Positions 825-35,675 of a stretch of DNA of 42,350 nucleotides are shown here, piece after piece. Numbering within the stretch: position 1 is the stretch's first letter; the number at the start of each line of letters is the position of its first letter. Under the pieces are notes generated by a model. The model saw nothing but the letters and a program-made list of their open reading frames with translations. It did not search any database and was not told the DNA's origin. Origin of the DNA: Alphaproteobacteria bacterium (GTDB lineage Bacteria > Pseudomonadota > Alphaproteobacteria > Rs-D84 > SZUA-605). The DNA lies in assembly GCA_003250835.1 (NCBI GenBank), contig QKJL01000018.1:1-42350 (forward strand), read 5' to 3'. Made by a program: the position numbers and the translations under genes.

Positions 825-842
825 TTTGATTAATAATAGGTT
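825..842 (-). promoter_or_regulatory. leader motif AACCTATTATTAATCAAA
   Basis: Minus strand, downstream of the -10, 31 nt before the ATG at 811; recurs elsewhere in the window. Confidence 0.6.
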
Positions 843-885
843 TTTCATAATTTTTATATAAGAGAATTCTTTTTTTGTCAACGCA

Positions 886-23042: not shown

Positions 23043-23960
23043 ATGAAAAAATTAGTTATTTTATTGGCGGGAATCGCCTTGGTATTTGCTTCATGCGAAA
23101 AAATGGAGCCTATTTTTGAAGAAGCCCCTGAAGCTGAGACCCACGTATGGGGATTTGTCATTGAAGTACCTAATAGTACTTGTGACTATCCTTATACTTC
23201 ACAAGGTTTTAGTGATGAGTTAACAACAACTGGTTTTTATAGTTTTGAAGGCACTGAAGAAGAAGCTTTTCAAAATTATGAATTACTAGAGATGCAACTA
23301 CGTAATAATGTCACATCTTTTAGCGTCAATCTATATAGAGATCTTTTTTATTTTAATCCTGGACATGAATACCTTGTGAATTCGATGCCTCGGACTGAAA
23401 ATATGGAAATTAATATTTTGATTTTTCAAGATGAGACATTTATCACAAGTAAAGATCTAACCTTGTATGCGGATTACCATCCACATCGTGATGTCATTAC
23501 TTCTGAGGCTGGCGATACTCTTTATATTCAGGATAGTATTATGAATATAAACTATATTCCTGGCGATCCGATTGAAACTGTTACATATGATAGTAGTTCC
23601 ATTACACGGAGCCTTACATTTAACAACCTTGTTGATTCAACAAGTGTTGATGTAACAATTACCAGCACGTTTATCAATCAAATTGATAGTATTTGGTGGG
23701 TTCCTGATCCAATTGATACCGCTGGTGGGCAATGGGTAACAGTGACAGAAATTGATACTGCTTATCAATACAATGATACTACATTGTACTTTGTGTTCGA
23801 TAGCCTATCAGCTACTGTCAGCTGGACTGAATGGACTTACTTCAGTAATACGGATAGAACATATCCCCTTGTTGCTGATACAACCTGGACACCAATTGAT
23901 GAACTAATTTTCTTACCTCCTACTATTGAAAGATGCGATAGCATCCCGTATGTGAGGTAG
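23043..23960 (+). CDS. putative secreted lipoprotein, Bacteroidota-like signal peptide, unknown function
   Basis: MKKLVILLAGIALVFASCEK lipobox; no SD; AT-rich leader. Confidence 0.75.
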   Translation: MKKLVILLAGIALVFASCEKMEPIFEEAPEAETHVWGFVIEVPNSTCDYPYTSQGFSDELTTTGFYSFEGTEEEAFQNYELLEMQLRNNVTSFSVNLYRDLFYFNPGHEYLVNSMPRTENMEINILIFQDETFITSKDLTLYADYHPHRDVITSEAGDTLYIQDSIMNINYIPGDPIETVTYDSSSITRSLTFNNLVDSTSVDVTITSTFINQIDSIWWVPDPIDTAGGQWVTVTEIDTAYQYNDTTLYFVFDSLSATVSWTEWTYFSNTDRTYPLVADTTWTPIDELIFLPPTIERCDSIPYVR

Positions 23961-29670: not shown

Positions 29671-29877
29671 TTATTGTAGTAATGCTCTTGCCCGTATTGC
29701 AGGAGGATGAAGTAATCCATTCACAATATGTGATGGCATATCATCTTCTACTAGTAAATAGGCTTGGGGCCCATATTTACAAAATGAGGTATGGTTTGGG
29801 CATACTCTACCCGATTTACCATGCTCTTTACAATCTCCGCAACTTATAAACTTTGATTCTGCTACTGATTTACTCAT
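29671..29877 (-). CDS. Cys-rich small protein (CPxH...CxYGP family, copy 1)
   Basis: CGDCKEHGKSGRVCPNHTSFCKYGP; start trimmed to MSKSVAE because the longer ORF (29937) starts inside a terminator hairpin. Confidence 0.7.
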   Translation of the reverse strand: MSKSVAESKFISCGDCKEHGKSGRVCPNHTSFCKYGPQAYLLVEDDMPSHIVNGLLHPPAIRARALLQ

Positions 29878-29900
29878 ATCTATAATAGTTTTCTTTTCTG

Positions 29901-29932
29901 AAAAAAGCCCTACACATGACTGTGAAGGACTT
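29901..29932 (-). terminator. terminator of 30176 unit
   Basis: AGTCCTTCACA GTCA TGTGTAGGGCT plus T6 on minus strand. Confidence 0.75.
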
Positions 29933-29963
29933 TTCATTATTAACCCAAAATTAACCTATGAAA

Positions 29964-30176
29964 TTAATTTAAATACTGTTGCTGTAAATAAGCAGGAGTA
30001 TTTTCATCCAATAACATAATTTTATCAGGTCCATATTCACAGACCGCACCATTATGTTCTGGACAGATATTTCCTGCTTGTCCTTTTTTAGGACAATTTT
30101 TTCCGCAGTTTGATTTTTGTTGAGTTAACACTACCGTTGGTCTATTACAGAGACCCGAATTTATTATTTTCTTCAT
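29964..30176 (-). CDS. Cys-rich small protein (CPxH...CxYGP family, copy 2)
   Basis: NCGKNCPKKGQAGNICPEHNGAVCEYGP; promoter TTGACA-N16-TAAGAT upstream. Confidence 0.7.
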   Translation of the reverse strand: MKKIINSGLCNRPTVVLTQQKSNCGKNCPKKGQAGNICPEHNGAVCEYGPDKIMLLDENTPAYLQQQYLN

Positions 30177-30250: not shown

Positions 30251-30697
30251 TTATTTAAGTGATTGAGCTGCGTTATTTGCCAATTGATCAACACGCTCAT
30301 TTTCTGGATGGCCAGCATGACCTTTTACCCAATGCCATTCTATTTTATGTCTTTGCACCTGTTCATGCAGTGCTTGCCACAATTCTTTATTCTTTACTGG
30401 TTTACGCGCAGCTGTTTTCCAGCCATTTTTAATCCAGCCATGAATCCATGTCATCATGCCATTTTTTACATATTGTGAATCTGTATAGATTTCAACCTCG
30501 CATTCTGTCTTTAATGCTTTTAACCCTTCGATTACTGCGAGCAATTCCATTTTATTATTTGTTGTATTTTTTTCCGCCCCGGACATTTCTTTTTCTTTGT
30601 CCCCAGATATCAACAATGCCCCCCAGCCGCCTGGCCCCGGGTTTCCTAAACATGATCCATCTGTATATAATTTTACTTTTTTCATCATGTCTCGCAT
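30251..30697 (-). CDS. rnhA: ribonuclease HI
   Basis: [55 protein letters not shown]; start may be 30688 or 30685. Confidence 0.95.
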
Positions 30698-30714
30698 TAT
30701 ATCATATTTATTTC

Positions 30715-30748
30715 ATAAAAAAAAGGAGTGACTGTCACATGTCACCCC
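30715..30748 (-). terminator. intrinsic terminator of ncRNA candidate
   Basis: 8-bp stem with one G-U pair and T8. Confidence 0.85.
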
Positions 30749-31124
30749 CCTCACGACTTTTACTCTGCTACCAGAATAATAGGTTTGTAAAAACGAAGTG
30801 CTACCGGATCCGAACCAGTATCTTTGGCCAATGAGCCACTGCTCTCTCCACTACGGCTTTAGTTAACACCAATTTGTCATTCGACTTGTTGATATTGTTC
30901 ATTTCAAGATTTTTACACCTTACCTTCTCGGATATGATCCTTTTCGAAAGCACCATTTCTGGTTTTCATTACTTAATATTAACGTTAATTGGATCCAAGA
31001 CAATCTCATTGTCTTGATTTGCGTTCTTTATAACAGCTCATGTCTCCACGACTGAACAAAGCCTTCACACTTGAGCTAAGCATCTTCTATCGTAATAATA
31101 GGTTTAATAAGTATTCCTACTTAG
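30715..31124 (-). ncRNA. orphan structured ncRNA candidate, ~410 nt
   Basis: Promoter TTGACT-N16-TAGTAT, several hairpins, no ORF above 33 aa, terminator GGGGTGAC-ATGTGACA-GTCACTCC-T8. Confidence 0.6.
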
Positions 31125-31130
31125 TTCTTA

Positions 31131-31158
31131 ATACTATTCTAATATAAAAATCAGTCAA
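31131..31158 (-). promoter_or_regulatory. sigma70-like promoter of ncRNA candidate
   Basis: TTGACT (31158-31153), 16-bp spacer, TAGTAT (31136-31131). Confidence 0.65.
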
Positions 31159-31180: not shown

Positions 31181-31208
31181 TTGACTTTAATAAAGGAATC
31201 AGTATATT
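31181..31208 (+). promoter_or_regulatory. rplU promoter
   Basis: TTGACT-N16-TATATT. Confidence 0.7.
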
Positions 31209-31244
31209 GTACACATCTGAATTATGAACAAAAAGGAAATTAAG

Positions 31245-31541
31245 ATGTTTGCTGTATTTAAAACAGGCGGAAAACAGTATAAAGTTCAAAAAGGCGATGT
31301 ACTTTCAATTGAAAAGATTGACGCTGATAAAAAAGTTGAATTTGATGAAGTTTTAATGGTGAATGATACTATTGGAACTCCTGTTGTTAAAGGTGCGAAA
31401 GTTATTGCAGATGTTTTGGAACAAATGCGTGACGAAAAAGTGATTGTGTTTAAGAAAAAACGCCGTCAAAACTATCGTCGTAAAAACGGACATCGTCAAC
31501 ATTTAACAGTAATTAAAATCCAAGATATTAAAGTTGCTTAA
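31245..31541 (+). CDS. rplU: 50S ribosomal protein L21
   Basis: [35 protein letters not shown]; start trimmed. Confidence 0.96.
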
Positions 31542-32278: not shown

Positions 32279-32314
32279 CACCCCTTAATCATTTCTGACT
32301 AAGGGGATTTTTTT
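32279..32314. terminator. bidirectional terminator
   Basis: CCCCTTA-loop-TAAGGGG with A/T tracts. Confidence 0.8.
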
Positions 32315-32771
32315 ATTTTTCTGGCAACTGTAATTCAGGTGCCGTTGCAATCCATTTATTTTCTTCGTCCAAATAAGCAAAAGATAAACCTTCTGATACA
32401 GGTTGATCTTCCCCTCTTAGTTCAACTTCCCCAATATCATCGTAATCACGATGTGACGGTCTTTTTATATACCTTGGATCATTTTCCCATTCTACTAAGA
32501 GACCATTCCATGCACAGCGCTTTTCACCTGTTGTCCAATGCATATCGTGCAGCATAATTGTTCCCGCTGTAGTTTTCAAAGAATCACCCTCAACTTCATT
32601 AGGTAACAATCCAACAACTTCCAACACACGCGGTGGGGTACCGTATTTGTCCATTGTCACAAACAGTGTAATCTTTTTTCCTGTTTTTTTATCAATCGCA
32701 ATCACTTCTTCTGTGTTTGAACACGAAGCAAATACAATTGCAATTAAGACTAATAATAATAGATTTTTCAT
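32313..32771 (-). CDS. orphan lipoprotein
   Basis: MKNLLLLVLIAIVFASCSN lipobox; promoter TTGACA-N16-TAAACT; no SD. Confidence 0.75.
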   Translation of the reverse strand: MKNLLLLVLIAIVFASCSNTEEVIAIDKKTGKKITLFVTMDKYGTPPRVLEVVGLLPNEVEGDSLKTTAGTIMLHDMHWTTGEKRCAWNGLLVEWENDPRYIKRPSHRDYDDIGEVELRGEDQPVSEGLSFAYLDEENKWIATAPELQLPEK

Positions 32772-32780
32772 TTTAATAAT

Positions 32781-32799
32781 GTTTAATTAATAATAAGTT
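32781..32799 (-). promoter_or_regulatory. leader motif AACTTATTATTAATTAAAC
   Basis: 28 nt before the ATG at 32771. Confidence 0.55.
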
Positions 32800-32875
32800 T
32801 TATTAATTGCGAGTTTATCAGATATTTTAAATCTGTCAAATATTCTAAAAAAGCCCCATTTCTGAGGCTAATTTA

Positions 32876-35619: not shown

Positions 35620-35661
35620 AACCTTATTGACATATTTTAGTTCTTACTTATAATCTGCTTC

Positions 35662-35675
35662 AACCTATTATTAAT
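35662..35675 (+). promoter_or_regulatory. leader motif AACCTATTATTAAT
   Basis: Seven nt after TATAAT of TTGACA-N16-TATAAT; 30 nt before ATG 35692. Confidence 0.6.

Follow-up and report, generated by a model that had tools for sequence, protein, structure and literature searches.

A candidate lineage-specific RNA gene between rplU and rnhA in a reduced alphaproteobacterial genome

Our analysis points to a candidate RNA gene in the spacer between rplU and rnhA of an alphaproteobacterium with a reduced genome. The segment lies in a 42,350-nt stretch of DNA (the window) from contig C23; the assembly totals 671 kb in 39 contigs and is about 84% complete. Its permuted tmRNA and the affinities of its proteins mark the genome as alphaproteobacterial. 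To judge from its sequence, it may be a lineage-specific, mainly non-coding transcription unit whose product acts as an RNA in trans, a reading to which we give an even chance. A promoter and terminator, a weak coding signal, a G+C content of 37%, the lack of an Rfam family and a repeated leader motif bear in favor of a non-coding RNA, whereas the lack of a homolog, a mostly chance-like fold and the partial pairing of the second motif copy bear against it. An earlier, sequence-only reading had described an orphan non-coding RNA with its own signals and a T-arm-like 3′ hairpin; the separate, mostly non-coding unit with promoter and terminator and without an Rfam family stands, but the T-arm kinship does not.

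Table 1. Features of the candidate unit and its neighbors, in window coordinates
Feature	Position	Strand	Basis and remarks
Sigma-70-type promoter TTGACT-N16-TAGTAT	31131..31158	-	9/12 consensus positions; predicted start near 31124
Predicted transcript, ~405 nt	30717..31124	-	promoter to terminator
Leader motif AAACCTATTATT, copy 1	31094..31105	-	5′ end of unit
Predicted outer helix UUACGAU, 5′ strand	31089..31095	-	pairs with GUCGUGA 30757-30751; mean pair probability 0.84
Predicted closing helix GAAG-A-UGCU, 5′ strand	31079..31087	-	pairs with AGCACUUC 30802-30795; pair probabilities 0.79-0.90
25-codon ORF MLSSSVKALFSRGDMSCYKERKSRQ	31006..31083	-	ATG 20 bases past start of motif core ACCTATTATTA
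Perfect 9-bp hairpin CAAGACAAT-GAG-ATTGTCTTG	30996..31016	-	scan; unusual, 0.75% of shuffles
5/7/5 hairpin ACTGG-TTCGGAT-CCGGT (earlier read as a T-arm)	30803..30819	-	present; mean pair probability 0.47
Leader motif AAACCTATTATT, copy 2	30775..30786	-	near 3′ end; partly in predicted hairpin
Intrinsic terminator, 12 pairs then T run	30721..30752	-	scan; ends 24 bases before rnhA
Extended -10 TGATATAAT	30696..30704	-	read from sequence; probably a separate rnhA promoter (ATG 30688 or 30685)
rnhA (ribonuclease HI)	30251..30697	-	translation; downstream neighbor, outside unit
rplU (ribosomal protein L21)	31224..31541	+	divergent neighbor, outside unit

Boundaries and setting of the unit

Both transcription signals named in the sequence-only reading, the promoter and the strong intrinsic terminator, were confirmed by reading and by scan (Table 1). 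Transcription would start at about 31124, run divergently from rplU and end at the terminator before rnhA. A promoter-like site for rplU at 31181-31208(+) is divergent from the promoter of the unit. The downstream ORF is one that we take to be rnhA, following the first reading and what is known of the family. Elsewhere in the window, 29671-30176(-) encodes two neighboring small proteins, of 88 and 70 aa, that are rich in Cys and similar to each other (C..HG..G.VCPNH...C.YGP); neither has a Pfam match.

Coding signal is weak throughout the segment. Its longest ORF is 51 aa (30801-30956, minus strand) rather than the 33 aa first reported, and the plus strand holds one of 47 aa. A hexamer coding score, for which 293 long ORFs of the genome were the training set, stayed below zero in almost every window and frame; its best 90-base window reached 0.33, whereas real coding sequence has a median of 0.77. 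A pseudogene of a known protein was rejected because six-frame peptides of the segment gave no convincing Pfam match in any frame. The core has a G+C content of 37%, whereas gaps of 150 bases or more in this genome have 30% ± 5%. Among the other gaps of 240 bases or more with G+C-rich 200-base windows, many contain T-box leaders, tRNA or tmRNA, and some contain missed or broken genes.

A leader motif repeated within the unit

A repeated leader motif, with a 25-codon ORF behind its first copy, is new here and had been missed in the first reading. Besides the two copies in the unit, AAACCTATTATT occurs six more times genome-wide, and its reversed sequence does not occur at all. With up to one mismatch allowed, 35 sites of the core ACCTATTATTA were counted; 23 lie outside long ORFs, as against 3 of 53 for the reversed control. 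In at least 13 cases the motif precedes an ORF of 95-214 aa, at a distance of 7-30 bases from the ATG. Of 21 gap sites, 8 have TTGAC at 36-43 bases upstream of the motif; copy 1 of the unit is about 15-20 bases farther from its promoter than usual. The motif-led proteins are mutually unrelated, none of the seven compared with Pfam had a match above its cut-off, and the order's other genomes show no motif excess of this kind. The motif is thus a 5′-leader element of orphan genes that is private to this genome. By our own rough estimate, a second copy in the unit is a coincidence of about 2%. We had also considered a mobile element with flanking direct repeats, until the repeat proved to be the leader motif.

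Copy 1 by itself could simply be an mRNA leader. The main rival to a non-coding unit, which we regard as somewhat unlikely, is a gene for a short peptide or a decayed orphan-protein gene, with the remainder of the segment as a long 3′ untranslated region or as broken-frame remains. The motif-to-ATG distance of 20 bases falls inside the 7-30 bases of the other motif-led genes. The 25-codon ORF scores -0.02 to -0.26, and the first 25 codons of the motif-led genes have weak scores themselves (-0.80 to 0.95); because -0.02 lies inside this range, the score does not speak against a peptide. However, the downstream frames carry no clear coding signal, a convincing Pfam match is lacking, and the best tblastn match of the motif-led orphan proteins to the segment was at chance level (E ~0.5).

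Folding of the predicted transcript

The 411-nt segment has a folding energy of -106.3 kcal/mol (z = -3.0 against dinucleotide shuffles), and its antisense strand has z = -0.6. Removal of the terminator brought the segment to z = -2.0, and removal of both the terminator and the perfect 9-bp hairpin to z = -1.3. The above-chance folding is mostly the terminator and this one hairpin, and the remaining stability is within reach of chance, so the description of the RNA as structured is weakly supported, with most of the excess stability in two elements. The count of 4-bp stems is raised (1.7% of shuffles). The local hairpins originally listed, namely the 9-bp hairpin, AAGTA-GGAA-TACTT, GGAT-CAT-ATCC and GAGC-AGTG-GCTC, are all present in the sequence, as is AGCTCA...TGAGCT (31077-31035), although the latter is absent from the predicted minimum-energy and high-probability fold. 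The helices predicted to close the structure are given in Table 1.

The hairpin that had been likened to a tRNA T-arm is also present, but it does not support kinship with tRNA or tmRNA, given its loop (UUCGGAU), the absence of CCA, an empty ARAGORN result and the genome's own permuted tmRNA. The loop has G at the position of tRNA A58 and fails the T-loop pattern TTCRANY, and the hairpin is followed by AGCACUUCG, with no CCA. Any 5/7/5 hairpin is found in 33% of shuffles, and in 2% when the loop must start with TTCR and G-U pairs are allowed. Neither ARAGORN nor RF00005 detected a tRNA cloverleaf in the segment. An arrangement of a tRNA-like acceptor with a T-arm was rejected because of the T-loop and the absent CCA.

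Conservation among relatives

Searches with blastn of the order (201 genomes), the class (385 genomes), phages and plasmids, and a search for one exact pattern in viral contigs, yielded nothing beyond short matches at chance level. The tmRNA of the genome served as a control, and blastn recovered it at 14 of the 29 loci from relatives. Single-sequence covariance models for the two halves of the segment (R1 and R2) were run over the same 201 genomes of the order and also remained at chance level, with best matches of 12-18 bits for R1 and 22.6 bits for R2. The best R2 match, with TACGATAGAA in common, was rejected: it sits within an AddA-like helicase gene. In genome G187 (locus L241, ~380-530), an AddA-like helicase gene carries a G+C-rich palindromic in-frame insert with ccctcctcttgggtggggc and ccccccccccaagagggggg-like arms that resembles a repeat element.

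Since no homologs were found, there is no covariation to support the predicted helices. Absence of conservation in relatives, which the sequence-only reading had held would count against it, is what we found at the level of the order, among whose searched genomes the family is represented by the source genome alone. A family-specific RNA is compatible with this order-level absence of homologs.

The absence of conservation in the order also suits an explanation by chance, in which the segment would be an AT-rich spacer left by rearrangement, with an old terminator and an accidental resemblance to a promoter. Adjacency of rplU and rnhA was seen in none of the relatives checked, and promoter-like sites are frequent here, with 12 in 2.1 kb against 7.5 expected. 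We nevertheless consider this explanation unlikely, given the strength of the terminator, a G+C content above that of other gaps, the repetition of the motif and the persistence of a 526-base gap in a reduced genome.

Relation to rnhA and to T-box leaders

The segment might instead be a regulatory leader of rnhA, an attenuator in which readthrough of the terminator feeds the gene. The two share a strand, and the terminator ends close before rnhA. However, the extended -10 TGATATAAT comes right after the terminator, so rnhA would probably need no upstream transcript, and the segment has no Rfam cis-regulatory match, while real T-box leaders in the same genome score 44-90 bits. An attenuator is distinctly improbable.

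T-box leaders in particular left no trace in the segment: RF00230 gave no match, and UGGNACC is absent from the rplU-rnhA gap. A degenerate T-box was considered and rejected, as GGUAGCACUUCG agrees with GGUGGCACCGCG at 9 of 12 positions, for which we estimate ~0.5 occurrences by chance, and there is no model match. T-box leaders do occur elsewhere in this genome, at C19:3851-4083(-) and C21:24714-24859(-), with UGGNACC intact, before a tyrS that looks archaeal in type and before aspS. They score 90 and 44 bits, respectively, both below the Rfam cut-off of 93. T-box matches were found in 31 of 59 genomes of the order in all, those in other genomes being weaker, and the five relatives checked (L235-L239) have GGTGGNACC before tyrS or aspS. 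In a 2008 survey of 125 proteobacterial genomes, just two had T-boxes, in both cases with leuA (PMC2494555).

Comparison with known RNA families

The segment matches no known RNA family: the Rfam scan found none at gathering score, and the three matches at E ≤ 10 were at chance level with scores far below the cut-off. The first reading had been unable to match it to RNase P RNA, SRP RNA, 6S RNA or tmRNA, and the Rfam models gave the same result. Neither alpha_tmRNA (RF01849) nor tmRNA (RF00023) matched the segment at E ≤ 10, and there was no match to SRP RNA (RF00169) or 6S RNA (RF00013). In the whole-assembly scan at gathering score, tRNAs are present elsewhere in the genome, SRP RNA lies at C3:4851-4944, and no 6S RNA was found. 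The alphaproteobacterial two-piece tmRNA (RF01849) resembles the segment in size and in having a hairpin beside the predicted closing helix, but the segment has no match to that family, and the genome's own permuted tmRNA is elsewhere (C5:16796-17138, 182 bits).

That the segment is a strongly diverged known RNA, above all RNase P RNA, is very improbable. Its length is right, and RF00010 (RNase P RNA class A), present in 36 of the 41 genomes scanned from the order, is found nowhere in the ~84% complete assembly. But the segment lacks the conserved motifs and has no RF00010 match at E ≤ 10, and the relatives' copies are compact (~150-216 bits); the missing gene is more simply explained by an incomplete assembly.

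Possible function of the unit

Returning to the non-coding reading, the product would most likely be an RNA acting in trans. Lineage-specific intergenic sRNAs have been surveyed in small-genome alphaproteobacteria, namely Pelagibacter (PMC2704228) and Rickettsia (PMC4683814). The unit resembles such sRNAs in lying in a spacer with a promoter and terminator of its own and in having no Rfam family, but it is longer than most (~405 nt) and is known here from the sequence of one genome. If transcribed, it would add a further lineage-specific RNA gene to an alphaproteobacterial lineage of reduced genome size in which hardly any RNA biology is known.

Our most specific guess, a speculative one that we make because the motif is present in two copies, is a decoy mechanism. 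The two AAACCUAUUAUU copies would compete with the 5′ leaders of at least 13 orphan mRNAs for a small RNA or protein by which the element is recognized there. In decoy RNAs of the CsrB/RsmZ type, a repeated motif (GGA) is also present in mRNA leaders, and the unit is similar in that its repeated motif is common to mRNA leaders. In contrast to CsrB/RsmZ, there are only two copies, the motif is AAACCUAUUAUU rather than GGA, the copies are not clearly in loops, and the binder is putative. That the unit represents a new kind of decoy RNA, whose two AAACCUAUUAUUAA copies titrate a putative RNA-binding factor controlling the orphan-gene set, is quite unlikely. If the unit is transcribed, its link to the leader element that the orphan genes have in common would offer a handle on how this genome controls its private gene set.

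Several further observations concern the leader element and the genome around it. The element in the form AAACCTATTATTAA is found in the window at 831-843(-), 32788-32800(-) and 35661-35673(+) and on contigs C1, C4, C10, C12, C21, C22, C25, C33 and C35. It often lies just 3′ of sigma-70-type promoters, and it is possible that it is a regulon mark or an unusual translation-start element. Lipoproteins with a Bacteroidetes-like look (FASC signal peptides) are encoded in the window at 32313-32771(-) and 23043-23960(+); the former has the leader motif before it and lacks a Pfam match. On contig C30 (16283-18087), a phage terminase-like large subunit extends over two reading frames, a remnant of a prophage or of a gene-transfer agent.
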